From Candidatus Omnitrophica bacterium CG11_big_fil_rev_8_21_14_0_20_41_12 (GTDB lineage: Bacteria; Omnitrophota; Gorgyraeia; Gygaellales; Profunditerraquicolaceae), in contig PCWB01000054.1 in NCBI GenBank assembly GCA_002796135.1, positions 466 through 35,140 on the forward strand: a DNA stretch of 34,675 bases, given 5' to 3'. Below, piece after piece: positions 19,188 through 33,701 of this stretch. The notes under the pieces are model-generated. The model saw nothing but the letters and a program-made list of their open reading frames with translations. It searched no databases and was not told the origin of the DNA. Positions within the stretch are counted from its first letter, which is position 1; every line of letters starts with the position of its first letter. Position numbers and translations under genes: made by a program.

Positions 19188-19189
19188 TT

Positions 19190-19276: not shown

Positions 19277-19440
19277 TAACTACTTATATAATTATATCAC
19301 GAGTTAAATTTCCTGAGGGAGAACAGCGTCGTTTTCTTAATTCTGTCGGACTTTATTTCAAGAATGATTGGATAGAAGCATCGAAATTTCTTAATATTAA
19401 TGAGAGGACTCTTAGAGATTGGCGATGTGAAAAATTCACA

Positions 19441-20316: not shown

Positions 20317-20337
20317 ACGTTTTAAGAATTTATAATT

Positions 20338-20422
20338 GGAGGGATGGGAGAGTGGTTGAATCCAGACGCCTCGAAAGCGTCCAGGCCGCAAGGCCTCGCA
20401 GGTTCGAATCCTGCTCCTTCCG
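20338..20422 (+). tRNA. tRNA-Ser (anticodon CGA)
   Basis: Acceptor GGAGGGA/TCCTTCC (one G-U pair), anticodon stem GACGC/GCGTC with loop CTCGAAA (anticodon CGA), a long variable arm (CAGGCC-GCAA-GGCCTC region), T arm GCAGG-TTCGAAT-CCTGC, discriminator G20422. TATAAT at 20331-20336 ends just before the mature 5' end. Confidence 0.95.
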
Positions 20423-20457
20423 ATAATTTTGATAAACGGCATGGATAATTAATAGAC

Positions 20458-20514
20458 TTGACTTGAAACCTAAGAAGTTGTATAATTTACATCAGTTGAT
20501 GTAAATTATACAAC
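20458..20514 (+). promoter_or_regulatory. Promoter with -10 buried in a perfect 38-nt palindromic operator
   Basis: TTGACT (20458-20463), a 17-nt spacer, TATAAT (20481-20486). The -10 lies inside an inverted repeat with perfect 18-nt arms (20477-20494 and 20497-20514) and a GT centre; the left arm is GTTGTATAATTTACATCA. A protein bound here would block the -10 and the start site (about 20493). The nearest candidate binder is the winged-helix domain at the N-terminus of the next gene, so autoregulation is inferred. Confidence 0.75.
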
Positions 20515-20529
20515 AGTAAAGCTAATCCG

Positions 20530-21093
20530 ATGACACCTTTTACCGGCTCAAAATTAAGATCAAAACTGCTTTCCTACTTTTTCACCAATCCGGAAAAGTT
20601 TTGTTACGTTCGCCAGCTTGGTATTATCCTAAATGCTGACCCAGGCAACCTTTCAAGGGAGCTGTGTAAACTTGAACGAGAAGGTATATTTATCTCTTCT
20701 ACTAAGGGATCAATAAAGCTTTATTCTCTAGATAAAAAATATCCTTTATTCAATGATCTTAAAAACATAGTATTTAAAACCGAGGGAATAGAGGGGAGCT
20801 TAAGACAGTTGGTTTCTGAATATGCGGGGATAGAACTTGCTTTCATATATGGTTCTTATGCAAAAGGAAAAGAGAAAGGAAATTCTGATATAGATATTGT
20901 TGTGGTCGGTTCTTTTCCGAGAGACGAATTCACGCGAAAATTGCGCATGCTGGAATCAAGATTAAATAGAGAGGCTAATTTTAGCTCCTATACTAAAACA
21001 GAATTTGTGAAAGAGAGTCAGATAAAAGGTGGATTTCTTAATATTGTTATTAAAGGCAAGGTTATATTATTGAAAGGTAATTTCAATGATTGA
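20530..21093 (+). CDS. Winged-helix + MNT-type nucleotidyltransferase (antitoxin-like)
   Basis: 187 aa. Residues about 1-75 look like an ArsR-type winged helix (KLLSYFFTNPEKFCYVRQLG, NLSRELCKLEREGIF). Residues about 95-185 are a minimal nucleotidyltransferase with the complete GS-x10-DxD motif (GSYAKGKEKGNSDIDIVVVG). In MntA/HepT systems the MNT protein AMPylates and neutralises the HEPN toxin. Here it overlaps a HEPN gene by 8 nt and lies behind a palindromic operator. The fused DNA-binding domain suggests it is also the autorepressor. No Shine-Dalgarno is evident before ATG 20530. Confidence 0.85.
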   Translation: MTPFTGSKLRSKLLSYFFTNPEKFCYVRQLGIILNADPGNLSRELCKLEREGIFISSTKGSIKLYSLDKKYPLFNDLKNIVFKTEGIEGSLRQLVSEYAGIELAFIYGSYAKGKEKGNSDIDIVVVGSFPRDEFTRKLRMLESRLNREANFSSYTKTEFVKESQIKGGFLNIVIKGKVILLKGNFND

Positions 21094-21547
21094 GGGCCTT
21101 GCAAAGAAATTAGAAAAAGAGGGAAAACTCGCGGCACAGAAGGTCGGCATTGTTCAGATAGAACCCCTTTTAAAGGAGGCGATCATAGATTTAGAGGAGT
21201 CTAAAAAGACATTACATATAGCAGATAGGGCAACTTATATAATGGCATACACGGCTATGCTTAAAGCGGGGCGCGCGCTCCTTCTCTTGAAAGGCTATAG
21301 GCCTACGGATGGTGCGCAGCACAAAACCGTGGTAGAAATGACCGGTGCTATTTTAGGCGACAAATATGTCAGCCTGGTTAATCATTTTGAAACGATGCGC
21401 AGGAAAAGGAACGAATTGACATATGAGGCTGGAACGTTGCTTTCCGGATCAGAATCTAAGCAAGCTTTGGATGACGCCACTTTGCTAATAAGAAATATTC
21501 TGAAAGAAGTGAAGTTGCGAAATTCTCAGTTTGAACTTAAGTTGTAA
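21086..21547 (+). CDS. HEPN-domain protein (toxin-like partner of the MNT protein)
   Basis: 153 aa, mostly alpha-helical. The pattern LLKEAIIDLEESKKTL, YIMAYTAMLKAGRALLLLKGYRP, HKTVVEM, HFETMRRKRNELTYE fits HEPN proteins paired with minimal nucleotidyltransferases. The expected R-x4-H RNase motif is not intact: the sequence is RRKRNELTYE, keeping Arg, Asn and Tyr but lacking the His. The start overlaps the upstream gene by 8 nt (ATGATTGA). It is a toxin candidate by context; RNase activity is doubtful from the sequence. Confidence 0.78.
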   Translation: MIEGLAKKLEKEGKLAAQKVGIVQIEPLLKEAIIDLEESKKTLHIADRATYIMAYTAMLKAGRALLLLKGYRPTDGAQHKTVVEMTGAILGDKYVSLVNHFETMRRKRNELTYEAGTLLSGSESKQALDDATLLIRNILKEVKLRNSQFELKL

Positions 21548-21557
21548 AGTTTATAAT
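21530..21557 (+). promoter_or_regulatory. Putative promoter of tRNA-Ser(GGA)
   Basis: TTTGAA (21530-21535), a 16-nt spacer, TATAAT (21552-21557), starting inside the last codons of the HEPN gene and ending 20 nt before the tRNA. The -35 is imperfect. Confidence 0.4.
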
Positions 21558-21577
21558 ATGAACCAGTAGGAAGATTT

Positions 21578-21662
21578 GGAGGGGTCGCGTAGTGGTCGAG
21601 CGCGCGTGTTTGGAAAACACGTAATCCGCAAGGGTTCCAGGGTTCGAATCCCTGCCTCTCCG
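21578..21662 (+). tRNA. tRNA-Ser (anticodon GGA); likely attachment site of the downstream element
   Basis: Acceptor GGAGGGG/CCTCTCC (one G-U pair), anticodon stem CGTGT/ACACG with loop TTGGAAA (anticodon GGA), a long variable arm, T arm CAGGG-TTCGAAT-CCCTG, discriminator G21662. Element genes begin directly downstream and run to a tyrosine integrase at the right edge, so the tRNA 3' end is the natural attB/attL core. The second copy expected beyond the integrase is outside the window. Confidence 0.93.
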
Positions 21663-21758
21663 ATGTACTTTTTATACACACTGCTATTACCTCGTCTTAA
21701 CCCTACCAAAAGTATCAAATCTCCCATATAAATCAATAGGTTACATCACAAGTTTATT

Positions 21759-21802
21759 AAAGCCATTTCAAGTTATCGCAAGATAACAGAAGTGGCTTTT
21801 TT
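21759..21802 (+). terminator. Strong intrinsic terminator between tRNA-Ser(GGA) and the element's first gene
   Basis: Outer stem 21759-21769 with 21789-21799 (11 bp, one G-U). Inner stem GTTATC/GATAAC (21772-21777 with 21782-21787) is capped by a GCAA tetraloop, and a run of six T follows (21797-21802). It ends tRNA-Ser transcription and isolates the element from chromosomal read-through. Confidence 0.78.
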
Positions 21803-21810
21803 GTTTAAAA

Positions 21811-21830
21811 AAGTGGTAGAAAAGTGGTAG
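21811..21830 (+). repeat. Tandem AAGTGGTAG repeats, 11-bp period
   Basis: AAGTGGTAG occurs at 21811-21819 and again at 21822-21830, 11 bp apart, about one helical turn. A partial copy (AAGTGGC) is at 21790-21796. Between the terminator and the first element gene this could be integrase or excisionase arm-type binding sites, but two short repeats are weak evidence. Confidence 0.4.
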
Positions 21831-21850
21831 GAAATTGCCAGGAGGAAACG

Positions 21851-22474
21851 ATGGTAGCAATTAATAAAGAAACTTATTGGAATGATGGGCTTTGCCGGTA
21901 TGAAGACATCTCAACTTTTTCATATCCAACAGAGATTGAGTTATTGAAGATATTTCCGGAGGCGAGGGAGATAATCCCGCAGAAGATAGATGAGTGGATG
22001 AGGGTGAAGGGGAAGCTCCTCAGCAAGGAAGTAATGCCTGTATTAAAGAAGATTGGCGGTATTAAAGATGATTTCTCTCGCTGGTTCTGGAGGGAGGCCT
22101 ACAAGTCTTTTGTTAATCCAAGATTTATAGAGACGGTAGAGCAATTGGCACGCCTTAAAAGGCTTCAGATATTAATTGCTGATACTAAGCACTCTAAGAA
22201 TATTGTAGATTTTGAGCAGAAGAAAGAGGCCGCCAAGCAAACTCCCATTCTAAGTTTATATTCTTTCCAGAAGCTGAGAAAACTAGGTTCAAGATATACT
22301 GCATTATGTCCATTTCACAATGAGGATACTGCCAGTTTTGTTATCTACCCGGATAATTCATTCCATTGTTTTGGCTGTCAAGCTCACGGAGATGCTATAG
22401 ATTTTGTGAAGTTATTGAAAAATTACGATTTTAAAGAAGCAGTCGGATCTCTTTGTTTTGGAGGGGTGGCATAA
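21851..22474 (+). CDS. CHC2 zinc-finger protein (DnaG-type primase zinc domain)
   Basis: 207 aa. The C-terminal part (about 145-200) is a CHC2 zinc finger: C-x2-H (CPFH) and C-x2-C (CFGC) around TASFVIYPDNSFH, followed by AHGDAIDFVKLL, as in DnaG and phage primases. The N-terminal 140 residues are helical and unrecognised; there is no TOPRIM or primase catalytic domain, so it is a zinc-finger subunit or DNA-recognition partner of the helicase encoded next. ATG 21851 is used, as AGGAGG (21840-21845) lies 5 nt upstream; an in-frame GTG at 21824 is less likely. Its stop overlaps the next ATG (TAATG). Confidence 0.82.
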   Translation: MVAINKETYWNDGLCRYEDISTFSYPTEIELLKIFPEAREIIPQKIDEWMRVKGKLLSKEVMPVLKKIGGIKDDFSRWFWREAYKSFVNPRFIETVEQLARLKRLQILIADTKHSKNIVDFEQKKEAAKQTPILSLYSFQKLRKLGSRYTALCPFHNEDTASFVIYPDNSFHCFGCQAHGDAIDFVKLLKNYDFKEAVGSLCFGGVA

Positions 22475-23790
22475 TGAGTACGAATGTTTTATTAGAAAAA
22501 GAGTTTACGAATGCTCTCAAAGATACACGAGAACCCAATGAGATTGAGATTAAAAATTGCAATCAGATAGCCGAAAGTATTCAAAGAGATAAAACTCTAT
22601 TGTATTGTGATGGCTATTACGAATATGAATTAGGAGTGTTCCTGTTGGTCAAGGAAGATAAGATAAAGAAATTCATAAAGGCTAAATTGAAAGATAAATT
22701 CACCCAGTTTAAAGCAAATGAGATCCTCCATTCCTTGAGAGTTGATATAGCCTTAGGATGTTCTGAAGATTTGAATGCAAGCAAGCTGTTGAATTTGAAG
22801 AATGGTATGTTTGATCTTGAGACTTTAAAGCTTATTCCTCATTCATCTGATTTTAAGTCAACAATACAGTTGCCGGTAAATTATGATCCAAATGCAAAGT
22901 GCGGTAAATGGCTTGAATCCTTAAAGGAAATATTCTTGGATGATATTGAGAAAGCAGATATATTACAAGAGTTTTTTGGGTTGTGTCTTACAAAGGAAAC
23001 TAAGTACGAAAAGGCGCTTTTTACAATAGGAGAAGGTGCAAACGGAAAATCTACGATACTACATATCCTTCAGCAGATACTTGGGAAAAGAAATTATAGT
23101 TCTGTTCCATTAGAGTTATTTAATAACCCGCATTATACCGCTAATTTTTATAACCGGTTAGCCAATATTTCTATTGAAACCAATGCTAAAAGTTCGGTCT
23201 ATGATTCTCTAATGAAGGCGGTAATATCTGGAGATACGATTAGCGCGGATCTTAAATATCAGAATGTTATACAATTCAATCCCTTCTGTAAGTTAATCTT
23301 CGCCCTTAATAGTATGCCAAGAGTAGATGATAAAACAGACGCTTTCTATAGGAGGATAATTGTTTTAAGATTTAATCGGCAGTTTAAGGAAGATGAACAG
23401 AATAAAAACTTAAAGCATGAACTTGAGGTTGAAATGGACGGAATCTTTGCTTGGATGGTTGAGGGCCTTAGAAGATTGCGCCAGAGAGGTTATTTTGAGC
23501 TTTCTACAGGCATAAAACAAGAGGTAGAGGAATATCGCAAAGAAAATAACAATGTTCTTACTTTTGTTGAGGAAGAGTGCAATTTAGAGTCAGATGCCAT
23601 TATTTCTAAGCAGGAACTTTATAATTCTTATAGTGAATGGTGTAAGAAGAATGGCTATAAGAGCTTAGCTAAGAAGAAATTTGGTAAAGAATTGGCAAAG
23701 CATTTTCAGGGTAAGATAACAGATGGCCGAAGTGGATCAGGAGATATAAGGATATGGATGGGAGTAGGAGCAACGGGGGCAATCATTTGA
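22474..23790 (+). CDS. Phage/plasmid P4-type (D5) replicative helicase
   Basis: 438 aa. The D5-N region (LLNLKNGMFDLETLKLIPH) is followed by a superfamily 3 helicase domain with Walker A GEGANGKST (about 187-195), the YNRLANISIETNAK region with GDTISADLKYQ, and FALNSMPRVDDKTDAFYRR as sensor/arginine region. A winged helix-like C-terminus (NVLTFVEEECNLE, SYSEWCKKNGYK) completes it. This is the replication initiator-helicase type of P4-like satellites and many phages. ATG 22474 with GGAGG upstream is chosen over an earlier in-frame ATG. With the CHC2 gene it makes up the replication module. Confidence 0.9.
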   Translation: MSTNVLLEKEFTNALKDTREPNEIEIKNCNQIAESIQRDKTLLYCDGYYEYELGVFLLVKEDKIKKFIKAKLKDKFTQFKANEILHSLRVDIALGCSEDLNASKLLNLKNGMFDLETLKLIPHSSDFKSTIQLPVNYDPNAKCGKWLESLKEIFLDDIEKADILQEFFGLCLTKETKYEKALFTIGEGANGKSTILHILQQILGKRNYSSVPLELFNNPHYTANFYNRLANISIETNAKSSVYDSLMKAVISGDTISADLKYQNVIQFNPFCKLIFALNSMPRVDDKTDAFYRRIIVLRFNRQFKEDEQNKNLKHELEVEMDGIFAWMVEGLRRLRQRGYFELSTGIKQEVEEYRKENNNVLTFVEEECNLESDAIISKQELYNSYSEWCKKNGYKSLAKKKFGKELAKHFQGKITDGRSGSGDIRIWMGVGATGAII

Positions 23791-23873
23791 CGATACTGAC
23801 GAAGCTGACGATTATTGTTCTATGTTATCTTGCTATCTCCTATCTTTTTTACCGCTATAAAGCACGAGGATAA
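23754..23873 (+). CDS. Candidate 39-aa single-pass membrane peptide
   Basis: A frame overlapping the helicase 3' end starts at ATG 23754, with AGGAG (23739-23743) 10 nt upstream. It encodes 39 residues with one strongly hydrophobic stretch (LTIIVLCYLAISYLF) flanked by basic residues (YRYKARG). The size and charge pattern suit a small phage membrane peptide. The hydrophobic run could be chance, and part of it covers the TGACGA repeat array. Confidence 0.35.
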   Translation: MDGSRSNGGNHLTILTKLTIIVLCYLAISYLFYRYKARG

Positions 23874-23911
23874 CAATAAAGAAATATCGTCAGAATTGTC
23901 AGTAATTGTCA
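23788..23911. repeat. Mirrored array of TGACGA-type hexamers (possible replication origin)
   Basis: Three direct TGACGA copies at 23788, 23797 and 23806 (9-bp period) face three inverted relatives, TCGTCA at 23887 and TTGTCA at 23896 and 23906. Between them TTATTGTT...GTTATC (about 23812-23829) is mirrored by GATAACAATAA (23869-23879), with a pyrimidine-rich middle. This lies between the helicase and terS. Iteron-like origin, operator and packaging (cos/pac) recognition site are all possible. Confidence 0.5.
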
Positions 23912-23929
23912 GTAGACAAAGGATAATGC

Positions 23930-24418
23930 ATGAAAAACGAAGTAAAATTAACCCTAAAACAGCGGAAATTCATTAAATATTATATTGAAACCGGTAATGC
24001 AAGCTTGGCGGCGCGCAGGGCAGGATATGCCTTAGGTAAAGAACAGGGCTATGAAAACCTCACTAAGCCTCACATTCGGCTTGCTTTTATGGTTCTTTTG
24101 GATAAAAGGGGTCTAACGGATGAGAAAATTATCGATAAGCTTATTGAATTGATTGAAGCTAAGCGGCAGATATCAGCCAATATTACCTATGGCGATGCAG
24201 ACGAAAAGACAGTGGACTTTATTGAGGTGCCGGATAACCCAACACAGATAAAAGCCCTTGAGCTTCTAATAAAATTAAAATCACTTATAGGTAATGACGG
24301 AAATACCCTGATAGATCAATCTCAACATGTAACCCAGATATTTCTTGCTAACAAAATAAAAGAAGCAAGGGAAAGAATAATCAATGGCAAAGTTATCAGC
24401 ACAGAATCCGGAACGTGA
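23930..24418 (+). CDS. terS: Phage terminase small subunit
   Basis: 162 aa. The N-terminal LTLKQRKFIKYYIETGNASLAARRAGY is the DNA-binding helix-turn-helix signature of the terminase small subunit (Terminase_2/XtmA family). A central helical oligomerisation region (TDEKIIDKLIELIEAKR) follows, and the C-terminus probably binds TerL. It recognises the packaging site on the element or helper-phage DNA. The 3' end overlaps terL by 35 nt. Confidence 0.85.
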   Translation: MKNEVKLTLKQRKFIKYYIETGNASLAARRAGYALGKEQGYENLTKPHIRLAFMVLLDKRGLTDEKIIDKLIELIEAKRQISANITYGDADEKTVDFIEVPDNPTQIKALELLIKLKSLIGNDGNTLIDQSQHVTQIFLANKIKEARERIINGKVISTESGT

Positions 24419-25847
24419 CTTGATTAATGATATGGTTTCAATATCTAAAGACCCCTACGATTGGGTTTTATATTCTTTTGAATGGGGCAAGGGCGAGCTT
24501 TTAGGCTTTGATGGGCCGGATGTATGGCAGAAGGACCTACTTTGCGCCATTAGGGATGGCTTATTGACTTCGAATGAAGCGATAAGGCTGGCAACTGCTT
24601 CAGGAAATGGCGTAGGTAAATCCGCTTTAGTGTCCTGGATTATCCTCTGGTCGTTATCTACCTTCGAAGATACTCGTGGAATAGTTACCGCTAACACAGA
24701 AAATCAGCTCAGGACTAAAACTTGGGCTGAACTTGCTAAATGGTATCGGTTATTTATAGCTAAACACTGGTTTACTTTTACCGCAACGGCAATCTATTCA
24801 GTTGATCCAGAACATGAAAAGACTTGGCGTGTAGATCAGATTCCCTGGTCAGAGCATAATTCAGAAGCGTTTGCGGGACTACACAATAAGGGCAAACGTA
24901 TTATTGTGATAATGGATGAAGCTTCGGCTATTCCTGATATTATATGGGAAGTTACTGAAGGCGCTCTTACTGATGAAGGTACCGAAATAATCTGGGCTGT
25001 CTTTGGTAATCCAACACGAAATACAGGGCGCTTTCATAGTTGCTTTGCTAAGTCTCGGAATAGATGGAAAACTTGGCAGATAGATAGCCAAACAGTTAAG
25101 ATTACTAACAAAGAACAGCTTAGTCAGTGGATTGGAGACTACGGAATAGACAGTGACTGGGTACGTGTTCACGTTCTAGGAAAGTTTCCTAAGGCAAGCG
25201 ACCTACAGTTTATCCCAACAGACATAGCAGAGGCTGCAGCTGGGCGCAAACTTGGAGAGAACTCATACTATTGGGCACCAAAGATAATCGGTCTTGATCC
25301 AGCTTGGACAGGTGGAGATAACATAGTTATCTATTTACGGCAAGGTTTAATGGCTAAAAAGCTTGCAGAGTTTCAAAAGAATGATGACGACAGTAAAATA
25401 GCCGGTGCACTTGCGCACTACGAAGACGCAGAGAAAGCAGACGCAGTCTTTATAGACCAAGGTTACGGCACAGGGATATACTCCTTTGGTAAGACGCTAA
25501 ACCGTAACTGGACGCTTGTTAACTTTGGGGCAAAGAGCGGAACTCCAGGGTTCGCTAATAAGCGTGCAGAGATATGGGGTATGCTAAAGCAGTGGCTCAT
25601 AGAAGGTGGCTGTGTCCCCAAAGATCCTAAGATGATTGTAGATCTAACCGGCCCAGAGAGCCATATAAACATACGCGATTGCATTGTACTGGAAAGTAAA
25701 GACAGCATGCGTAAACGCGGATTAGCAAGTCCCGGGAACGCAGACGCTCTAGCTTTGACGTTTGCATTCCCGGTTAAGGCCAAGAATAGACTGGCCCAGC
25801 AAATAAAGGAATTTACTAATGATAAGTATGATGTTCTAGGAGATTAG
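24384..25847 (+). CDS. terL: Phage terminase large subunit (ATPase + nuclease)
   Basis: 487 aa. The packaging ATPase has Walker A SGNGVGKSAL (about 73-82) and Walker B IVIMDEAS (about 174-181), followed by the coupling region WAVFGNPTRNTGRF. The C-terminal RNase H-like nuclease has its acidic residues in GLDPAWTGGDN (about 303), FIDQGYGTG and GNADALALTFA. It looks complete and active. It ends in two consecutive TAG codons. In ordinary phages a portal gene follows; none is found here. Confidence 0.9.
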   Translation: MAKLSAQNPERDLINDMVSISKDPYDWVLYSFEWGKGELLGFDGPDVWQKDLLCAIRDGLLTSNEAIRLATASGNGVGKSALVSWIILWSLSTFEDTRGIVTANTENQLRTKTWAELAKWYRLFIAKHWFTFTATAIYSVDPEHEKTWRVDQIPWSEHNSEAFAGLHNKGKRIIVIMDEASAIPDIIWEVTEGALTDEGTEIIWAVFGNPTRNTGRFHSCFAKSRNRWKTWQIDSQTVKITNKEQLSQWIGDYGIDSDWVRVHVLGKFPKASDLQFIPTDIAEAAAGRKLGENSYYWAPKIIGLDPAWTGGDNIVIYLRQGLMAKKLAEFQKNDDDSKIAGALAHYEDAEKADAVFIDQGYGTGIYSFGKTLNRNWTLVNFGAKSGTPGFANKRAEIWGMLKQWLIEGGCVPKDPKMIVDLTGPESHINIRDCIVLESKDSMRKRGLASPGNADALALTFAFPVKAKNRLAQQIKEFTNDKYDVLGD

Positions 25848-25907
25848 TAGGAGCAAACAATCCTCCCGGTCGTTTTTACAGGTTTTCAAGGAGAAGGAAG
25901 GCATGGT

Positions 25908-25927
25908 AAACAAACGAACGATTGTTT
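25908..25927. promoter_or_regulatory. 20-bp palindromic operator-like site A
   Basis: AAACAAACGAACGATTGTTT, arms of 9 nt with one mismatch. It matches site B (27363-27382) at 18 of 20 positions, and both are preceded by T and followed by G. It lies just upstream of the Cys-rich mini-gene. The layout resembles TetR-family operators, but no TetR gene is in the window. Confidence 0.5.
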
Positions 25928-25941
25928 GGTAAGGAGGAGCA

Positions 25942-26091
25942 ATGGCTTTAAGCGGGGTAAATAGGCTTTGCAAGAATTGCAGCCAAGAGTGTAAGCAGTG
26001 GAAGTTGGTAAAAGTAGTAAGGTGTCCGGCCTATCAGCGCAACCAGGATGCCAAAGTCGGAGATATGCAAGTTTTAAGCAAAGCAGAATAG
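25942..26091 (+). CDS. Small Cys-rich, probably zinc-binding protein (49 aa)
   Basis: 49 aa. It reads MALSGVNRLCKNCSQECKQW with C-x2-C-x3-C and a fourth Cys 12 residues later (VRCPAY), enough for one zinc site. A strong Shine-Dalgarno (AAGGAGGAG) sits a few bases upstream. Small Cys-rich proteins of this kind are common in phages (Com-like translation regulators, zinc ribbons), but no family is recognised. Operator-like site A lies just upstream. Confidence 0.6.
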   Translation: MALSGVNRLCKNCSQECKQWKLVKVVRCPAYQRNQDAKVGDMQVLSKAE

Positions 26092-26236
26092 GGAAATAGG
26101 CTCGTAGTGAGGTGATTTTTGAATGATAAAGGAAATGGGCATTGAAAGGGCTTCGTTGATTTTAGGGCTTATTTGAGTTTTTTTGCAAGTATTCGGGATT
26201 AGCTTATTAGGTGTACATTTTAGAGATAAATAATGC

Positions 26237-26266
26237 TTGACGGAGATGCTTTAAGAGAGGTAAAAT
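26237..26266 (+). promoter_or_regulatory. Putative promoter of the 53-aa/PIN gene pair
   Basis: TTGACG (26237-26242), an 18-nt spacer, TAAAAT (26261-26266), about 50 nt upstream of ATG 26317. The rest of 26092-26316 shows no other gene or clear structure. Confidence 0.45.
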
Positions 26267-26316
26267 AAGTAAACCTCAAGAAGATGTAAGATAGCTAAAA
26301 AAGCAAGGGGGGGGTA

Positions 26317-26478
26317 ATGAAACAAGAAAAAGAGATTGTAAAGCTGGCTAAGATAAAAAACGGGGGAGACTTTGAGAAATGGCTTGAGGCGACGCCTCCC
26401 CACGTTCCGAGTATTGATAGAGTAAGGGAAATCACTAAAAAGGTGGCTTATTCTATGGTTGAGGCTACTTCTGAATAA
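26317..26478 (+). CDS. Small protein (53 aa), possible antitoxin of the PIN gene
   Basis: 53 aa. It has a Lys/Glu-rich start (MKQEKEIVKLAKIKNGGDFE), then KWLEATPPHVPSIDRVREIT, a helical charged tail and TSE. A G-rich run (8 G) lies 3-10 nt before the ATG as a ribosome-binding site. It ends 1 nt before the GTG start proposed for the PIN gene, the tight arrangement seen in VapBC-type pairs. No antitoxin family is recognised, so the role is inferred from layout alone. Confidence 0.5.
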   Translation: MKQEKEIVKLAKIKNGGDFEKWLEATPPHVPSIDRVREITKKVAYSMVEATSE

Positions 26479-26479
26479 T

Positions 26480-27283
26480 GTGCATTATTGTGTATTAGAT
26501 ACATCTGCTATTCTGCAACGATTTCAACCTACCGATCAAAACGCTCAGTATTTAATTGATGTCCTCTATCAGAACACTAAGATTGAATTATATATTCCTT
26601 ATGTTTGTTTCTCTGAAGTAATACAGCAGTTCTACAATGCCCATAAAAAAAGTCAATTAACATCTACTCCGATGTCGATTACTGAAAGATCTGGTCTTAT
26701 CAATAGACTGAGGCAAGATGTTAAAGATGGTAAGCTCAATCCTTATCCTACTGAAGCAAGTTTGTTTGCAAGAACAGAAGAGATTTTTAATCAATCGTTC
26801 ACTATCACTGCTAGGAATCGTGTTATAGATATGGCTGATATGCTTGTTATTGCTACGGGACTTGAACTTAATAGTCTTTCTAGCAGCGCAGAGGAAACGT
26901 ATATATTTTCTTCCGATTGCCATTTATTTGATGTTGCTACTGCTTTAGGTATTAAATGTTTTAATCCAAGACTTGTCACAGTAGATCAAATGCCAGAATG
27001 TTTTGATAGGAGAATGTTTAAACGTAATCCTGTATCTTTGCATGCAATATGTAAAGATTGTAATACAGGAGATGTTTACGGTTCTACGAGAATAATTGAT
27101 ATTTGTGAATATGGGATATGCATTGAACAACCAAAAAAGAATATAAACATTGGTGACAGAATTAACTTTTCAATTTCACCTGGAGGTAGCTGGAAAGATG
27201 CAGACACCAGGATAGGCGTAGCTGTCCGTTCTGAAAATGACAGAGTTGGTGTTTTATTAGAAGAACCGTTGTCTTTGAATTAG
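26480..27283 (+). CDS. PIN-domain protein with PilZ-like C-terminal domain
   Basis: 267 aa from GTG 26480 (an in-frame TTG at 26459 would add 7 residues). Residues about 1-180 are PIN-like: YCVLDTSAIL with the first Asp, the FSEVI acidic residue, VIDMADMLVIATGLEL, and IFSSDCHLFDVATALG, giving the expected acidic cluster of a metal-dependent RNase. The last 80 residues resemble a PilZ beta-barrel: RIIDICEYGICIEQPK (D-x-S-x-x-G-like with Cys for Ser), INIGDRINFSI, IGVAVRSENDRVGVLLEE. The PilZ call is tentative; the RxxxR c-di-GMP motif is not clear. Nucleotide- or RNA-sensing control of a nuclease would be the inference. Confidence 0.65.
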   Translation: MHYCVLDTSAILQRFQPTDQNAQYLIDVLYQNTKIELYIPYVCFSEVIQQFYNAHKKSQLTSTPMSITERSGLINRLRQDVKDGKLNPYPTEASLFARTEEIFNQSFTITARNRVIDMADMLVIATGLELNSLSSSAEETYIFSSDCHLFDVATALGIKCFNPRLVTVDQMPECFDRRMFKRNPVSLHAICKDCNTGDVYGSTRIIDICEYGICIEQPKKNINIGDRINFSISPGGSWKDADTRIGVAVRSENDRVGVLLEEPLSLN

Positions 27284-27362
27284 TCTCCCTTACTCTAGTC
27301 TAGTATATTATAAACTACCTTTTAATGTTCCAACTTCACTATCCAGGTTTTCTATGTTTACT

Positions 27363-27382
27363 AAACAAACGACCGTTTGTTT
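27363..27382. promoter_or_regulatory. 20-bp palindromic operator-like site B
   Basis: AAACAAACGACCGTTTGTTT, with perfect 9-nt arms around AC. It is the near-twin of site A, 1,455 bp away. The two bracket the Cys-rich, 53-aa and PIN genes. No open frame of note follows within 70 nt. Confidence 0.5.
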
Positions 27383-27456
27383 GATAGGTTATTTGCAAGG
27401 GGAAATATGGCTGAATAAGGAGAAGGGGATTATTTGGTCGGTTTTTCTTTTACACC

Positions 27457-27654
27457 CTAAATTTCAATCTTCCACAAAAGTTTTATTTTCTTCCGTTTAA
27501 TCTAGATCTCTAAGTCTTTCAGATCAAACTTAACTATCTTACCAAACTTGTAATGAGGGATTTTCTTTTCGTGCGTCCATTGATAGAGCGTCTTGATGGA
27601 AAGACCTAAGTATCCCGAACACTCTTTCATTCCAAGGAAGCGTTTCTAATGCAT
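27457..27654 (-). pseudogene. Excisionase-like helix-turn-helix gene interrupted by two amber codons
   Basis: On the minus strand, ATG 27654 opens M-H-TAG-KRFLGMKE.. The frame then runs through SGYLGLSIKTLYQW, IPHYKFGKIVKFDLKDLEI, a second TAG (27504-27502), IKRKKIKLLWKIEI and a final TAG (27459-27457). This is the whole HTH_17/excisionase pattern; relatives usually read M-x-KRFL at the start and have Trp (TGG) where the second TAG stands. Internal ATG 27630 still gives a 42-aa wHTH. It is a decayed gene, a shortened functional one, or, least likely, amber-recoded; TAG ends other element genes such as terL. Confidence 0.65.
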
Positions 27655-27663
27655 AGATTAAGA

Positions 27664-28272
27664 TTAGCGAAGTCGAGATCCTGACCTAAGACCTCTATAT
27701 GTAGGGGTTTTGTATATACCGCAAGATTTCAGAATAGAAATCAATAAAAATAGAATACCTAATATCAGAATGACCTTAATCAGGAATTCTTTTTCAAGAG
27801 CTTTCTTAAATATCTTTTTTATTGTGGTTAGTGTTTTATTAATTCCGTATGCTTTAATTGTCATAATTAAGCGAATGAGAAGATAAATCGCATATGCGAA
27901 AACAATCAATACCACCAAGTTTCGTAGAGTATTTCTTAATCTTCCCCAAAAGGAATTAGTCCAGCCTATTGTTTCAATTTCAAGGTCTGCTGGGCATCCT
28001 TCTAATTCAACAATATCCTTGTTGGCCTTTTTATTAAAAGATTCTGGGTAAAATTTTACAATTTCCTTGAATATGGTAACTTTCTCTTTAAACTCATCAA
28101 ATGTAAGTATTGGTTGAAGAAATGACACTTTATAAGAATGACCGCCAGTAGTACCTAAATAGTTATATACTTGTTTTTCGTTGGGAATAAAGTAATTTAT
28201 CAATACTGTAACAAAGATGCAGATTGCAATAATAACTTCTCTTATTATTATCTTCTTAAGTTTTTTATCCAT
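27664..28272 (-). CDS. Membrane protein of unknown function (cargo)
   Basis: 202 aa from ATG 28272. One N-terminal hydrophobic helix (IIIREVIIAICIFVTVLINYF) is followed by about 90 soluble residues and then two hydrophobic helices (NLVVLIVFAYAIYLLIRLIM and FLIKVILILGILFLLISIL). The tail is basic. No family is recognised. A GTG 15 nt upstream is an alternative start, but it falls inside the -10 region. It is one of the few minus-strand genes and has its own promoter. Confidence 0.6.
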   Translation of the reverse strand: MDKKLKKIIIREVIIAICIFVTVLINYFIPNEKQVYNYLGTTGGHSYKVSFLQPILTFDEFKEKVTIFKEIVKFYPESFNKKANKDIVELEGCPADLEIETIGWTNSFWGRLRNTLRNLVVLIVFAYAIYLLIRLIMTIKAYGINKTLTTIKKIFKKALEKEFLIKVILILGILFLLISILKSCGIYKTPTYRGLRSGSRLR

Positions 28273-28278
28273 GCTCCA

Positions 28279-28308
28279 ATTATACACCCCAGAGTATGCT
28301 TATGCCAA
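28279..28308 (-). promoter_or_regulatory. Promoter of the minus-strand membrane gene, leaderless spacing
   Basis: Read on the minus strand: TTGGCA (28308-28303), an 18-nt spacer, TATAAT (28284-28279) with TG upstream. ATG 28272 begins 6 nt after the -10, so the transcript should start at about the start codon. Confidence 0.55.
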
Positions 28309-28367
28309 GATAAATAGTTAGTTAGATTTACCCACTTCTTTTGTCTATTGTATTAGGAGGCGAAGAT

Positions 28368-28526
28368 ATGGCTGATTGTCCAGATGAAAACGATATGGCT
28401 TGCTATATTGACAAATTGCTCTCTGATGATGAGGTAGGCCAGATAGAGGGGCATTTACTTGGTTGCGATAGGTGCCGGGAGATAGTAGTGGTTACCAAGA
28501 AGGTTGTTGCCTGGATCGAGGGTTAG
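28368..28526 (+). CDS. Stand-alone anti-sigma-type zinc finger (zf-HC2-like) protein
   Basis: 52 aa. DENDMACYIDKLLSDDEVGQIEGHL is followed by H-x3-C-x2-C (HLLGCDRC) and a short helix, the zinc-binding anti-sigma pattern of ZAS proteins. It has no membrane helix, so it would be a soluble regulator. ATG 28368 is chosen because AGGAGG (28355-28360) lies 7 nt upstream. The partner is unknown; no sigma factor gene is in the window. Confidence 0.7.
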   Translation: MADCPDENDMACYIDKLLSDDEVGQIEGHLLGCDRCREIVVVTKKVVAWIEG

Positions 28527-28628
28527 AGGTATAATCCGTTTATACACAAAGGAATGGTAATGGGATCTAAGTAGTTAAATTTAAAGACAACTCTTGAAAA
28601 AGGTTTTGTTTTTTATTGGAGGAGGCAG

Positions 28629-29216
28629 ATGAAGGTAATATACTATAGCTCTATTTTTTATTTAGGTGCATTTGCTATCGTGGTAGCGTTTCCTTTTTTT
28701 ACCAGATGGCATTGGTTAATAAAGTTAGCTGTAGCTCTTTTAGCCTTTGTGGCTCTTATTTTATCTATCGCTTATCAGCATTTAGAGAAGAAAACAGAAG
28801 AATTAGATAAGCGAATCGCAGAGATGCGAGATGAACAGCGCACACAAGTCATAAGTAAGAAATTAGACGATCTAAAAGAAAAAGAGAAGAAGGGTTTATT
28901 TACTGATAAGGATTATTTAAATAGGATAGCTCTTCAATTAGAGGAATTAACTATTAATATTGAATCACAGAGTAAATTAGTAAGGCAGCAGTATCTTACT
29001 GCATATTTTGATGAAGTAGCTAAAATACCCGCTTTTTATACTTGGGAAGAATGGAAAGAAACTGAGGGAATTTTGTATTCGCGCATTTTAAACGGCATTA
29101 ACGGCATTTTTAATCTAAGAGGTATGTTTAGTAGCAGTGAACGAGTAGCTTTAATTGATGAGTTTAATAAAGAGCGAGATAAATACCTTAAAGCGAAAGA
29201 GCGACAAAACAAATAA
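28629..29216 (+). CDS. Membrane-anchored coiled-coil protein, unknown function
   Basis: 195 aa. Two hydrophobic segments (IFYLGAFAIVVAFPFF and LIKLAVALLAFVALILSIAY, residues about 9-53) are followed by a charged coiled coil (HLEKKTEELDKRIAEMRDEQ) and a soluble helical C-terminal half. GGAGG is 5-10 nt before the ATG. No family is recognised. The two-TM plus cytoplasmic helical layout is common in accessory proteins of mobile elements, including some defence effectors, but nothing specific supports that. Confidence 0.65.
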   Translation: MKVIYYSSIFYLGAFAIVVAFPFFTRWHWLIKLAVALLAFVALILSIAYQHLEKKTEELDKRIAEMRDEQRTQVISKKLDDLKEKEKKGLFTDKDYLNRIALQLEELTINIESQSKLVRQQYLTAYFDEVAKIPAFYTWEEWKETEGILYSRILNGINGIFNLRGMFSSSERVALIDEFNKERDKYLKAKERQNK

Positions 29217-29280
29217 ATGAATAAACAACCAATAGCTGCTCGGAGAAGTTTCATATTTTCCTAAAATTACTCTAAAGATC

Positions 29281-30027
29281 ATGCAATTATCTAATATTTA
29301 TTTTGCCTATAAGAATTACATAAATGATGATTACGGCGCTAGTTGGGATTGGATAAATCAATTAATAAAGAAGCATAATGTTGACGAACGACTTGATCGG
29401 ATAACAACAAAGGATGTTACAGAAGATATTGTAAAAAGCAGCATTTTAATAAAAAAAGGATATTATGCAGTATCATTTAACAAGTCTAAAGTGTCTTCAG
29501 TAGAACAAATCACGGGTTTTCATCTTTATCATACTGGAATCGGTTGCGATATTTGTTTTGATACTGATGGTGCTTCTTCGCACGATAGTAATGTGCATGT
29601 TATAGTGGAAAGGAAGGAAGATTTAACGCGGATAGCTGAGCATGTAGAATTACAAAAGGCAAATATATCCAAGGAACAAATATTTGAAAAAATTCATCTA
29701 CAGGAGCCGTATATTAAAAAGCATGAATTAACCGATTTATTGACCATAAATAAAGAATATCTTTTAATCAAGGGGATTTTTAAGTTTTCCTGTGACGATG
29801 ATGATCTCGGAGACGAATATCCTTATTTTGGAATACTATTGCAAAATGACGGCACTCTTTTGATTGAAGTATGTCATGAATTATGGAATGTGCTTTTGAT
29901 AGATGAAAAATATTATTTTGTGACGCATTGGCAGAAACCAGAAGCCGGTGGAAGGGGATTAATTATTTATACATTAGAGGGAAAATTTTTAAAAAAAGTT
30001 TTTGCAGATCATTCCGATGCTACTTGA
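29281..30027 (+). CDS. Hypothetical soluble protein (248 aa)
   Basis: 248 aa, acidic, no signal peptide and no membrane segment. There is a helical N-terminal half and a beta-rich C-terminal half (YLLIKGIFKFS, YFGILLQNDGTLLIEVCHELWNVLLIDEKYYFV). No motif or family is recognised. No Shine-Dalgarno precedes ATG 29281. It stands alone between the coiled-coil membrane gene and the structured RNA. Confidence 0.6.
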   Translation: MQLSNIYFAYKNYINDDYGASWDWINQLIKKHNVDERLDRITTKDVTEDIVKSSILIKKGYYAVSFNKSKVSSVEQITGFHLYHTGIGCDICFDTDGASSHDSNVHVIVERKEDLTRIAEHVELQKANISKEQIFEKIHLQEPYIKKHELTDLLTINKEYLLIKGIFKFSCDDDDLGDEYPYFGILLQNDGTLLIEVCHELWNVLLIDEKYYFVTHWQKPEAGGRGLIIYTLEGKFLKKVFADHSDAT

Positions 30028-30120
30028 TTAGTTGAAAAGAAAGGTAGTTAATAATAGTTGCTTGATTTAGTTTTTGCAGTAAACTTGAGTTAGATAATTT
30101 GGTTTAAAGCATTACCTTAA

Positions 30121-30244
30121 AGAGGATTTAGGCCTCTGACCGTGAAGTAGGGTAAGCTGCATCACTCCCCGAAAGGGGGGCGGGAAATGCAGTCTTACTT
30201 GGTCTTCCTTCACGGTCGCCAGTGGGAATATGCGCCCGCTTTTT
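30121..30244 (+). ncRNA. Candidate structured RNA with terminal intrinsic terminator
   Basis: Four nested or adjacent helices are visible. P0 is AGAGG/CCTCT (30121-30125 with 30133-30137). P1 is a perfect 10-bp stem GACCGTGAAG/CTTCACGGTC (30138-30147 with 30208-30217). P2 inside it is GTAAGCTGCAT with ATGCAG-T-CTTAC (30152-30162 with 30187-30198, one bulge). P3 is a C/G stem capped by a GAAA tetraloop (30167-30178). A terminator-like stem AGTGGG/CCCGCT (30221-30226 with 30235-30240) runs into TTTTT (30240-30244). It lies 30 nt before a lipoprotein gene, so it may be a cis-acting leader or a free small RNA. No known RNA family is recognised and no convincing promoter was found. Confidence 0.6.
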
Positions 30245-30273
30245 ATTGGGGAATCTTAATTGGAGGAAATAAT

Positions 30274-30876
30274 ATGAGAAAATGTTCTACTCTTTTTATT
30301 ATTATTTTGACTTTTACCTCTATATCCTGCGCTACGTTTGATCCAAAAATGCTTATCCAAAGCAACGATGCTGTTTCAAATCGACTCTTACCATTAGAAA
30401 TATCTAATCTGGCTTCGACAAAATTTGAACAATCCGATGTAAAAGATCTCAGTACCCAATCTTACTTCTATACCTTGTTTGAGAGGGAACTGGAAAAGAA
30501 CATAATATTGACAGATCCTAATGGGACGATTTATGGAAATATAGAGCCAAGGGTAATATTATTCTCTATTGATCGCTCAGGTCAATTTCTTTCATTTTTG
30601 TCCGGAGCCTCTTTATTTATTCTGAATGTTCTCGGAATGCCGATAGATAGTTATAGGGGCAATTTAGAGATAAAAATATTCATTTATAATAGAAGCCAGA
30701 AAATAATTAAGAAATACGACTATATTTCAAGTAGAACTTTTAATGCAGGATTTTATTATGGGACAATGGATGAAAGGGTTATGGGCATCAGTTTAATGAG
30801 GGGTATACTAAGAGATTTTAAGAAAGATATTGAAAAAGATGCCGCTGTTATTAATGAGCAGTTAAGGAAGAATTAA
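30274..30876 (+). CDS. Predicted lipoprotein, unknown function
   Basis: 200 aa from ATG 30274, with GGAGG (30262-30266) 7 nt upstream. A type II signal peptide is visible: MRKCSTLFIIILTFTSISC with a lipobox-like SISC and Cys19 as the lipidated residue. The mature part has no recognised domain; a hydrophobic stretch (FLSFLSGASLFILNVLGM) lies near residue 110. A frame open from 30187 would include the terminator and is rejected. The structured RNA lies directly upstream and could control it. Confidence 0.7.
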   Translation: MRKCSTLFIIILTFTSISCATFDPKMLIQSNDAVSNRLLPLEISNLASTKFEQSDVKDLSTQSYFYTLFERELEKNIILTDPNGTIYGNIEPRVILFSIDRSGQFLSFLSGASLFILNVLGMPIDSYRGNLEIKIFIYNRSQKIIKKYDYISSRTFNAGFYYGTMDERVMGISLMRGILRDFKKDIEKDAAVINEQLRKN

Positions 30877-30959
30877 TTCTTACACAACACATTACTTTTG
30901 AAACAATTATTTGTCAACTTTAAGGATTTTAGTCTTAATTTACATGGGAAACGGAATAA

Positions 30960-31109
30960 ATGAAATCGTCGCGTTCACCAACTACAAAATATCCAAAGTA
31001 TACACTAAGGGATGCGCTTCTTATGTTAGCGGATTTCACCCTGAGAATAAGAAAAACCCGGAGGGAGAGTCGACCAAGAGAAAACCGCTTCAAAAAAGTC
31101 AGTGGATAG
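30960..31109 (+). CDS. Possible small basic protein (49 aa)
   Basis: ATG 30960 to TAG 31107-31109 encodes a very basic 49-residue peptide (TKYPKYTLRDALLMLADFTLRIRKTR..). It ends 3 nt before the next gene. An overlapping frame (30911-31132, TTG start) competes. Neither has a good ribosome-binding site, so coding is uncertain. Confidence 0.22.
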   Translation: MKSSRSPTTKYPKYTLRDALLMLADFTLRIRKTRRESRPRENRFKKVSG

Positions 31110-31112
31110 CCA

Positions 31113-31364
31113 ATGTTGAATATTATTTTTAAATTAGCAATATTCTCTGTAATAGCCATTATTATTCTCTATTTAGCTCTTTCCAAAAATAGGTTTATAC
31201 CAAAATCAATTAGGATCTCGGCTCAGTTTTTATTACTCCCATTGCATCCTTATTTGAAACACGGAGATACTTTAAAAGGCATAGGTGGAACTATAGCTAT
31301 TTCTTGTGGCGTTGGATTGGTTCTTAGTTTAATTTTTGGATTGATAAAGCATTTTATGAAATAA
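31113..31364 (+). CDS. Small two-helix membrane protein, unknown
   Basis: 83 aa. Two hydrophobic helices (IIFKLAIFSVIAIIILYLAL and IGGTIAISCGVGLVLSLIFGL) are separated by a basic loop with RFIPKSIRIS. It has the size and layout of a holin, but no lysin is nearby, so holin is only a guess. No clear Shine-Dalgarno. Confidence 0.5.
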   Translation: MLNIIFKLAIFSVIAIIILYLALSKNRFIPKSIRISAQFLLLPLHPYLKHGDTLKGIGGTIAISCGVGLVLSLIFGLIKHFMK

Positions 31365-31382
31365 ATAGAAAGCGTTCAAAAT

Positions 31383-32027
31383 ATGGATTCTGATAAAATT
31401 ACAGGTAAAAGTAAGCAATTTACAGAGTGGCTGAAGAAACGGGATGAAGAGCTCGTACGAGAAAAAGAGAAGTTTCCTGATGTATGTGCTGCGTGTAGTA
31501 AACAGAATAGGTATTTCTTTGTACAAGAATACTATGGTACTGGAGCAGCATACCCAGAAATTCTCGGAGAACATTGCGATATAATTACGGCGAAAAAGCA
31601 TATTTTGAAATATATCTATGATGTTATTAAAATCGACAAGGAGCTATCACAAAAACGTATATTCTTGGGATTTGTGGAACCAGATTTTGATTGGCCGGAG
31701 GATATCAATCAGGATAGCCTTCGTTATTCGTATGATGAGTGGAAGGTTATTTTTGAAGTAAATGACATAGCGATAAATAGCCAAGAAGAGTTAAATAAAC
31801 ATATGGAAGGGTTATTTGATAAAAGCGATGATTATAGATTTCAAGAAAGTGGAGGCCTGCAGATTAAAGAATTTAAGATTGTAGATGGGAAGGAAGTTGT
31901 TAGTGAAGACTATATTTCGCTTAGACCAGATATGATATGGGAAGACTTAAAGCTAACATTTAATTGCTCTGTAGACGGTTCAATTATAAGAGGATTTGAA
32001 GAATTTTCACAATTCCAATTTGATTAA
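31383..32027 (+). CDS. Hypothetical soluble protein (214 aa)
   Basis: 214 aa, acidic. One C-x2-C (CAACSKQ) near residue 35 is followed by a Cys/His pair (GEHCD), which could bind zinc. The rest is mixed alpha/beta (FGFVEPDFDWPED-like acidic loops, SYDEWKVIFEVNDIAI). No family is recognised. It is the last cargo gene before the repressor and points toward it. Confidence 0.6.
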   Translation: MDSDKITGKSKQFTEWLKKRDEELVREKEKFPDVCAACSKQNRYFFVQEYYGTGAAYPEILGEHCDIITAKKHILKYIYDVIKIDKELSQKRIFLGFVEPDFDWPEDINQDSLRYSYDEWKVIFEVNDIAINSQEELNKHMEGLFDKSDDYRFQESGGLQIKEFKIVDGKEVVSEDYISLRPDMIWEDLKLTFNCSVDGSIIRGFEEFSQFQFD

Positions 32028-32071
32028 GACATAAAAAAAGTCAAAAGAAATGATAGATAAAGAACTACTAA

Positions 32072-32623
32072 TTATCTCTCCTGGGAACTTTTAGGAGGGG
32101 TGATCCTTTGTTTCTGCAAAATAGAATCAACGCATTGTTCTAATCTTTTTTCTCCCGCCTTAGATTTTTCTTCAAACTCAACAAGTATTTTTCGCAGTTC
32201 TTCAAGGATAGGGATAATTTTTTTGATTTCTTCCTTTGTAGGGGTAAATGAAGGGTTGGCTTTATCAAAAATTCTAGCGGCAGCGGGTTCATATTCTTTA
32301 TTCCAAAGGTAGGAAGTATATTGTGAGATAAAGATTTCGTGTTTAGTTCTTCTTAGCGCTTCAGGATTGTTCTTATAGGCACCTTCAAAATTATTCTTGT
32401 AGTATCCTCTTTGCGTTTGAAAGGGTAAGCCAAGAGTTTTGACAATATTGCTGAAGACAGGGGGAGAAGGAAGTTGTTTATCTGCTTCGATGCGCGACAA
32501 GAAACTTTCTGTTATGCCCACCTTACCCTTAACATAAGACAGGGAATATCCTAAATCCATCCTAGCTTTTCTTATTTTCTGGCCAAGAGTTTTTGCTTCT
32601 TTGGGGTATTCTGATTTTCGCAT
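32072..32623 (-). CDS. XRE-type helix-turn-helix repressor of the element
   Basis: 183 aa. The N-terminal XRE helix-turn-helix (about 12-66: LGQKIRKARMDLGYSLSYVK, VGITESFLSRIEADKQLPSP) is followed by a helical C-terminal region (about 110-170). There is no S24/LexA-type autopeptidase, so induction would not be by RecA-triggered self-cleavage. It is transcribed divergently from the Cro-like gene, from a near-consensus promoter with the start codon about at the transcript start. It is the CI-equivalent of the switch. Confidence 0.85.
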   Translation of the reverse strand: MRKSEYPKEAKTLGQKIRKARMDLGYSLSYVKGKVGITESFLSRIEADKQLPSPPVFSNIVKTLGLPFQTQRGYYKNNFEGAYKNNPEALRRTKHEIFISQYTSYLWNKEYEPAAARIFDKANPSFTPTKEEIKKIIPILEELRKILVEFEEKSKAGEKRLEQCVDSILQKQRITPPKSSQER

Positions 32624-32629
32624 AGTTTA

Positions 32630-32712
32630 ATTATACTATTTCTTACTTTCCTGTCAAGAAAAATAAAACTTGACTTTTATTAAGGGCATGTTATACTTAC
32701 TTGTCAGGTAAG
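32630..32712. promoter_or_regulatory. Divergent promoter/operator region (lambda-like switch)
   Basis: Minus-strand promoter: TTGACA (32657-32652), 16 nt, TATAAT (32635-32630). Plus-strand promoter: TTGACT (32670-32675), 16 nt, TATACT (32692-32697) with extended TG. Two 17-bp sites share the CTTAC-N7 layout: CTTACTTGTCAGGTAAG (32696-32712), covering the plus -10 edge and start, and CTTACTTTCCTGTCAAG (32642-32658), covering the minus -35. A weaker CTTGA..TTAAG (32669-32684) covers the plus -35. The remaining spacer 32713-32859 shows nothing further. Confidence 0.72.
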
Positions 32713-32859
32713 AAAGAAATGCATCTATGAATAATGGTGTTTGATAATTAAGGGTTGAATGAATATAGACTCCTTCGTTCAGGTAAAATGAAATGGTTGA
32801 AGAAGCCAAAAATTTTTAACCTGCTTAGTTAGTTAATATTATTGAAAGGCGGTGATGAG

Positions 32860-33117
32860 ATGAACAATTTAGTGCTTTATCGTAAACGAGCTAGAATGCG
32901 CCAATTTGATATAGCAAGGCAGCTTGGTGTAACAGAGCAGTTAATCTCTAAGTGGGAGTCTGGTAGAGCAGAGCCCCATATTGAGCAGGCCGTAGATGTA
33001 GCTAGAATTTTAGACATAGATCCGGAAAAGATATTCCCGGAGATGTTTGCTATTGGAATTGATGAAGGAGAAAGACCAGCTGCGGAAAAGAATGAGAAGG
33101 TTATTAGTTATGATTAG
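32860..33117 (+). CDS. Cro-like XRE helix-turn-helix protein
   Basis: 85 aa. The single HTH domain reads YRKRARMRQFDIARQLGVTEQLISKWESGRAEP, then VDVARILDIDPEKIFPEMF. ATG 32860 is chosen; AAGGCGGTGA lies just upstream, and the earlier in-frame TTG 32842 would absorb that ribosome-binding site. It is first in the rightward operon cro-resolvase-xis-int and faces the repressor, so a Cro or activator role is inferred. Confidence 0.82.
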   Translation: MNNLVLYRKRARMRQFDIARQLGVTEQLISKWESGRAEPHIEQAVDVARILDIDPEKIFPEMFAIGIDEGERPAAEKNEKVISYD

Positions 33118-33128
33118 GAGGCAAAGAT

Positions 33129-33701
33129 ATGAGAATTTGCTTGTATTGTCGGGTATCAAAGAATGATGAGAGTCAAGATCCGCAGAATCAACTTAATCCT
33201 CTCAGGGATTATGCAAAAGCTCTTGGCGGTGAAGTTGTTGGTGAGTATGTTGATCAGGCAAGTGGTAGTAATGGCGACAGGACGGAGTTTAAAAAAATGT
33301 TTGAGGATGCCGATAAAAGGAAGTTTGACCTCTTACTTTTATGGTCTTTAGACCGGCTCAGTAGGGAGGGGATTTCTAATACCCTAGGCTATATTGAAAG
33401 GCTAAAGCGTAGTGGCATTGCCTTAAAGTCGCTTCAGGAGTCTTGGTTGGATACCCGGGATGAAGGATTAGGCCAGCTCCTGCTGGCAATATTCAGCTGG
33501 GTGGCCCAGCAGGAACGCCGGCGTATCGTAGAAAGAACGAAGGCAGGGTTGGATAGGGCTAAGCGTGAAGGTAAAAAATTAGGTCGCCCTAAGAATAGAA
33601 AAGATGCTAAGCCTCGTTCTAAGAGTGGATACTATCTGCGCTATGCAGGGAAGACTAAAGAAGAACGCAAGCTTGGAGAATATAAGGAGGAAGGTAAATG
33701 A
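33129..33701 (+). CDS. Serine recombinase (resolvase/invertase family)
   Basis: 190 aa. The catalytic domain has YCRVSKND with nucleophile Ser10, LLLWSLDRLSREG, and QQERRRIVERTKAGLDRAKREGKKLGRPK with the E-helix. The C-terminal DNA-binding helix-turn-helix is short and unusual (SKSGYYLRYAGKTKEERKLGEYK). AGGAGG precedes the ATG. It could resolve element dimers or invert a segment; the tyrosine integrase downstream presumably does integration. Its 3' end overlaps the xis-like gene by 4 nt. Confidence 0.88.
   Translation: MRICLYCRVSKNDESQDPQNQLNPLRDYAKALGGEVVGEYVDQASGSNGDRTEFKKMFEDADKRKFDLLLLWSLDRLSREGISNTLGYIERLKRSGIALKSLQESWLDTRDEGLGQLLLAIFSWVAQQERRRIVERTKAGLDRAKREGKKLGRPKNRKDAKPRSKSGYYLRYAGKTKEERKLGEYKEEGK

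Follow-up and report, generated by a model that had tools for sequence, protein, structure and literature searches.

The window (the whole 34,675-nt stretch of Omnitrophota DNA analysed here) carries genes of a mobile element, among them a D5-type primase, a terminase small subunit, a probable large subunit and a serine recombinase. The D5-type primase and terminase genes of this phage or satellite element lie at 22453–25847, and a 4.4-kb IMG/VR contig (L044) is 99.98% identical to positions 21349–25784. An HTH gene and a small serine recombinase occupy 32842–33701; the same pairing recurs in G287 (L047 5209–5996), and the recombinase is 76% identical to its counterpart in viral contig L045. 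Elsewhere in the window are three tRNA-Ser genes (TGA, CGA and GGA anticodons; 19189–21663), the first two separated by a LAGLIDADG-type gene, and near-palindromic 25-nt repeats, TAAACAAACGA(A/C)CG(A/T)TTGTTTG, at 25907–25931 and 27358–27386, which flank a PIN-domain gene (26459–27283).

A compact RNA at 30121–30244 precedes a gene for a small lipoprotein-like protein. Its minimum free energy is −56.7 kcal/mol (z = −4.1), which makes it more stable than 200 of 200 dinucleotide shuffles, and its homologues fold with z from −3.4 to −4.7. Searches with Rfam 15 at this locus and at ten homologous loci found nothing that reaches a gathering threshold and nothing significant; over the whole window they returned tRNAs only. 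Judged from sequence, the folded RNA is real, evolutionarily conserved and previously uncatalogued. Its features and those of its surroundings are as follows.

30058–30085, + strand: putative promoter-like pair TTGCTT-16-TAAACT, a weak match that is absent from the promoter-scan list and shares its offset with better matches in homologues
30092–30120, + strand: conserved 5′ extension from the presumed transcript start; a boxA-like GYTCTTT lies here in six homologues, not in the window
30121–30137, + strand: 5′ hairpin H0 (AGAGG/CCTCT); both sides changed in 3/5 pairs among homologues
30138–30217, + strand: P1 closing stem (30138–30147/30208–30217), enclosing P2, P3 and the internal loop; compensatory changes in 6/13 pairs, 96.6% of cells paired
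30152–30198, + strand: P2 (GTAAG-CTGCA/TGCAG-T-CTTAC; 30152–30161/30188–30198), from the fold and the covariation alignment
30165–30180, + strand: P3 stem with a GAAA tetraloop; compensatory changes in 4/6 pairs, 100% paired
30180–30184, + strand: internal-loop strand of the pseudoknot (strand 1), GCGGG, which shares its first G with P3; covariation and complementarity
30221–30240, + strand: local hairpin AGTGGG/CCCGCT, alternative partner of pseudoknot strand 2; a scan match, not conserved
30235–30239, + strand: pseudoknot strand 2, CCCGC, directly before the U-tract; C–G to G–C double change, complementarity in 14/14 members (p = 0.0013)
30240–30244, + strand: U-tract, putative conditional termination site; a U-rich run follows strand 2 in 14/14 members
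30274–30876, + strand: downstream gene, small lipoprotein-like protein of 200 aa; no Pfam match, good ribosome-binding site

Much of this architecture had been set out in a preliminary description, and it can be read directly in the sequence: the 5′ hairpin, the perfect 10-bp closing stem, the inner stem with its single bulged base (a U), the GAAA-capped C/G stem, the five T and the nearby lipoprotein gene, whose ATG at 30274 lies 29 nt past the T run. This gap is too short for a second promoter.

A conserved RNA family in Omnitrophota

A blastn search of 195 relatives recovered four full-length copies at 81–89% identity and one 3′ fragment (G056), all in other genomes. The conserved block opens with the promoter-like sequence, some 70 nt before the 5′ hairpin, and ends just past the T run, beyond which the sequence is unrelated; the unit is longer than had been described. 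A covariance model of the window and the four full-length copies (R1) picked up G365, G287, G325, G174 and G147, which belong to other families of the class. Outside their training sets, a model built from nine members (R2) matched phage contig L053 and G357, and one built from twelve (R3) matched G227 and G352. The covariance searches bring the members beyond the window to 13, of which 12 are in Omnitrophota genomes of several families and one is in an IMG/VR temperate phage. The G056 locus, which holds the 3′ third only, was excluded from R1–R3 and from the count of 14.

Every match is a single copy per genome, and the distribution is scattered: 6 of 108 genomes in the family, counting the G056 fragment, and 12 of 374 in the class. 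A repeat element was rejected as an explanation because the window's own genome has only one full copy. No matches were found by blastn in phage and plasmid records or by three pattern scans of viral contigs. A fourth such scan returned the true match L053 and two chance matches (L052 and L054), and a genome-wide pattern scan gave four already known loci and six chance terminator matches outside the group.

The covariance-model search proposed in the preliminary description shows that the stems covary. In the nine best members, whose alignment was fitted to the model and leans towards structure, 96.3% of pair cells are standard pairs and 17/42 pairs are changed on both sides, giving 34 such cells versus 7.9 in shuffles (0/500 shuffles match). 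A structure-blind MAFFT alignment of five members agrees with this (6 pairs, 0/500 shuffles). G–U pairs are tolerated within the stems, and by reading the GAAA tetraloop of P3 is retained in 10/14 members. Substitutions in the homologues are compensated in the stems, with one exception. The terminator stem that had been placed before the T run (AGTGGG/CCCGCT) exists in the window but is mismatched in most homologues, with its middle pair broken in 5/9, and is among the weakest helices in the nine-member alignment.

A pseudoknot abutting the U-tract

In 14/14 members the C-rich strand just ahead of the U-tract is complementary over 5–10 bp to the G-rich 3′ strand of the internal loop, and the two form a pseudoknot. 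For these strands, which were hand-picked from the covariance alignments, permutations that swap partners between members all give a lower total pairing score, save for 0.13% of them (p = 0.0013); the same test on the first 12 members gave about 0.02 and strengthened once the new members were added. Among five close members, pair 73–131 switches between C–G and G–C (3 versus 2) within fixed surroundings. Distant members carry matching strand pairs of their own (AGGGAG/CUCCCU, AGGGGA/UCCCCU and AAGGGGC/GCCCCUU, as well as GGGGCAGGC/GCUUGCCCC and AGGGGCAAGC/GCUUGCUCCU).

Duplex energies for the pseudoknot range from −10 to −20 kcal/mol; in the 12 members whose local hairpin was evaluated, that hairpin has −1.6 to −8.2 kcal/mol. 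When members are taken singly against shuffled strands, the pairing is weak in the window (0.13) and strong in G227, G352 and G357 (0.01 or less). Strand 2 adjoins a U-rich run in every member, and in L053 this tract is short and interrupted (CUUCUUUU). The GC-rich helix right before the U-tract is the pseudoknot helix in 14/14 members, whereas a simple hairpin can form there in some members only.

Placement before cargo genes and candidate modes of control

All 14 members are followed by a gene on the same strand that starts 13–82 nt downstream. These genes are not recognisably homologous to one another; reading of their N termini suggests lipoprotein, secreted or membrane products in the window, G002, G058, G365, G287, G147, G227, G352 and G357. 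Several members stand before a single gene or a short gene run, and most are situated among integrases, primases or terminases. Tyrosine integrases lie beside tRNA genes in G058, G015 and G056, a recombinase gene is immediately upstream in G352 and G147, and serine recombinases are nearby in G287 and G174; genes that read as restriction-modification-like are close by in G325 and G147. In L053 the RNA lies between a leftward integrase and rightward early genes (excisionase, RecE-like exonuclease, RecT and replication initiator) and heads the early operon right after the early phage promoter, whereas the other members precede cargo genes.

The preliminary description had guessed at a riboswitch-like attenuator, a regulatory small RNA or an RNA partner of a cargo protein. 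The attenuator fits best, because each member immediately precedes a gene on its own strand and, in most cases, leaves no space for an intervening promoter. Ligand sensing finds no support in the downstream genes, which are unrelated and non-metabolic; a ligand riboswitch was rejected. A partner RNA is unlikely, because no single protein recurs beside it.

Upstream alignment places promoter-like boxes of homologues at the same offset as the candidate pair in the window (TTGTTT-16-TAGAAT, TTGACA-17-TATACT, TTGCAG-17-TATACT and TATAAT). A promoter directly before the 5′ hairpin (TAGACA-16-TACCTT) was dropped; distant members have clear TATAAT-type boxes about 45 nt upstream. A boxA-like G[CT]TCTTT occurs no more than 50 nt upstream of the model start in 6/14 leaders, against a mean of 0.17 and a maximum of 2 in 1,000 shuffles. 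Because it is missing from eight members, among them the window with its four closest relatives, boxA is a feature of part of the family. GCTCTTT is also found upstream of 16S in the rRNA leaders of G000 and G058. These leaders (L067 and L066, reverse strand, about 620–790 from the 5′ end of the printed strand) contain a strong hairpin with an extended T run, a terminator-like signal within an rRNA leader; in G000 it reads GTCCCGACACTTTGTCGGGACGTTTTTTTTT and immediately precedes boxA GCTCTTT.

The order of promoter, structured RNA, GC-rich strand, U-tract, ribosome-binding site and gene suggests that transcription beyond the U-tract is the step under control; the RNA probably determines whether RNA polymerase terminates before the gene or continues into it. 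Our main reading, to which we assign a probability of about 0.5, is that the RNA is a portable 5′ leader that acts in cis on the cargo genes of phages and satellites, with the pseudoknot building a conditional terminator. The transcript would start at the putative promoter, and the small hairpin and then the long bulged hairpin would fold. The C-rich strand, emerging just before the U-tract, would pair with the G-rich internal-loop strand, and the resulting pseudoknot would occupy precisely the position that the 3′ arm takes in a terminator hairpin. The default would be for RNA polymerase to pause or stop at the U-tract. Under the right condition it may read through into the cargo gene, the signal being perhaps the host Nus complex at boxA where present, or a factor encoded by the element or the host. 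A pseudoknot in place of a hairpin suggests that the entire fold, not a local stem, decides.

The G056 remnant (L022 4590–4720) has lost the 5′ part and the internal loop, and its strand lies in an intact local hairpin with a U-tract. It is located behind a TTGACA-18-TAGAAT promoter with a palindromic operator-like sequence (TTGACACCCCCACATATGGAGGTGTAGAAT), opposite an XRE repressor gene. That the local hairpin is kept after loss of the internal loop supports a terminator role for the strand. Against the conditional terminator count the weak promoter match in the window, the missing boxA in the window and its four closest relatives, the short, interrupted U-tract of L053, an alternative downstream pairing of the C-rich strand (described below), and the fact that a terminator built from a pseudoknot is unusual. 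A broader proposal, which we put forward tentatively, is that the family may be a new class of leader RNA, with a pseudoknot, not a hairpin, building the conditional terminator and boxA in part of its members; it would be passed around among the temperate phages and satellites of an uncultured phylum as a plug-in switch for expression.

A processive antitermination site of the nut, put or conAn kind is a serious though unlikely alternative. The RNA, either with boxA and Nus factors or alone, would stay on RNA polymerase, distant terminators would be ignored and the U-tract would merely be the first passed. The L053 copy lies just downstream of an early promoter, as HK022 putL does; the RNA has two stem-loops, like put (PMC9378689); six leaders contain boxA; and mobile elements are known users of such systems (PMC8955417). 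However, when the + strand beyond the RNA was scanned for strong intrinsic terminators, none turned up in L053 (to 14.3 kb) or in the window, which favours local control by attenuation, although Rho-dependent targets may exist. Moreover, several members head only one gene or a few, put measures about 70 nt with a pseudoknot unmentioned (PMC9378689), and R3 finds nothing in the early region of HK022.

It is rather improbable that the RNA is a trans-acting small RNA of the element, about 120–150 nt long with its own promoter and U-tract, such as an immunity or anti-phage RNA like P4 CI RNA. The terminated transcript would measure about 150 nt, promoter-like sequence and U-tract are in place, and the conserved GGAAUAUGCGC, located between P1 and strand 2, might base-pair with a target. 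Nevertheless, 14/14 members stand directly before a same-strand gene whose nearest promoter is upstream of the RNA, a placement that an independent small RNA gene does not need, and there is no similarity to P4.

A leader acting on translation or mRNA stability, in which the fold shields the mRNA or governs access to the ribosome-binding site, is very improbable. An RTTGGG stretch further downstream, close to the ribosome-binding site in G174, G357, G352 and G227, offers the C-rich strand an alternative partner, and the strand's role may then differ from that in a pseudoknot terminator; but this pairing is weakly supported (p = 0.08), and the ribosome-binding sites, themselves not conserved, fall outside the conserved fold. 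A DNA-level feature (a recombination hairpin, attC-like site or MITE) would suit the occurrence in mobile elements with varied neighbours, but is highly improbable given the single copy per genome, the tolerated G–U pairs, the consistent promoter/U-tract polarity and, on reading the sequence, the absence of RYYYAAC/GTTRRRY ends; an attC/dif-like recombination site was rejected, as matching core sequences were not seen.

With this locus a well-supported family of RNAs becomes known in which a pseudoknot directly adjoins a U-tract. To our knowledge it offers the first handle on control of cargo genes by integrated phages and satellites of the largely uncultured Omnitrophota. If, as in the conditional-terminator reading, the pseudoknot is what stops transcription, the family would be a case from nature in which long-range pairing, and not a hairpin, drives termination.

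Comparison with known systems

The Rfam skipping-rope RNA (RF02924) resembles the family in general look, with a long hairpin and a side hairpin, but was rejected as a chance-level match (13.1 bits, E = 3.1, versus a gathering score of 36.7). The P4 CI RNA leader and satellite-phage attenuators are leader RNAs with terminator control in satellite-type elements with primase genes. The present RNA is similarly a leader, with putative terminator control, in satellite-type elements carrying primase genes; R3 gave no match over P4 1–11600.

Six members recall lambda nut sites and the boxA of rRNA leaders, which serve Nus-factor antitermination, in having a boxA-like GYTCTTT shortly after the presumed promoter; rRNA leaders of related genomes have GCTCTTT. 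Unlike nut, the family RNA is far larger, pseudoknotted and without a lambda-like boxB; eight members including the window have no boxA, and no N-like protein was identified. The conAn system of pLS20-type conjugation operons, compared by description only, likewise has an RNA component at the start of mobile-element operons, but requires the protein ConAn1 and serves operons over 30 kb (PMC8955417).

HK022 put (putL/putR) is a cis-acting RNA of two stem-loops and about 70 nt, located just downstream of a temperate-phage early promoter, that acts alone on RNA polymerase; the text on its structure mentions no pseudoknot (PMC9378689). The family is similar in being a cis-acting structured RNA whose L053 copy comes right after an early phage promoter, and differs in its size and, judging by that text, in its pseudoknot. 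R3 over HK022 24000–33000 gave no match up to E = 10. No kinship to HK022 put or P4 was found with R3, and membership in those families is not claimed; the odds are roughly even that this RNA works like a cis-acting leader of the nut, put or attenuator kind.
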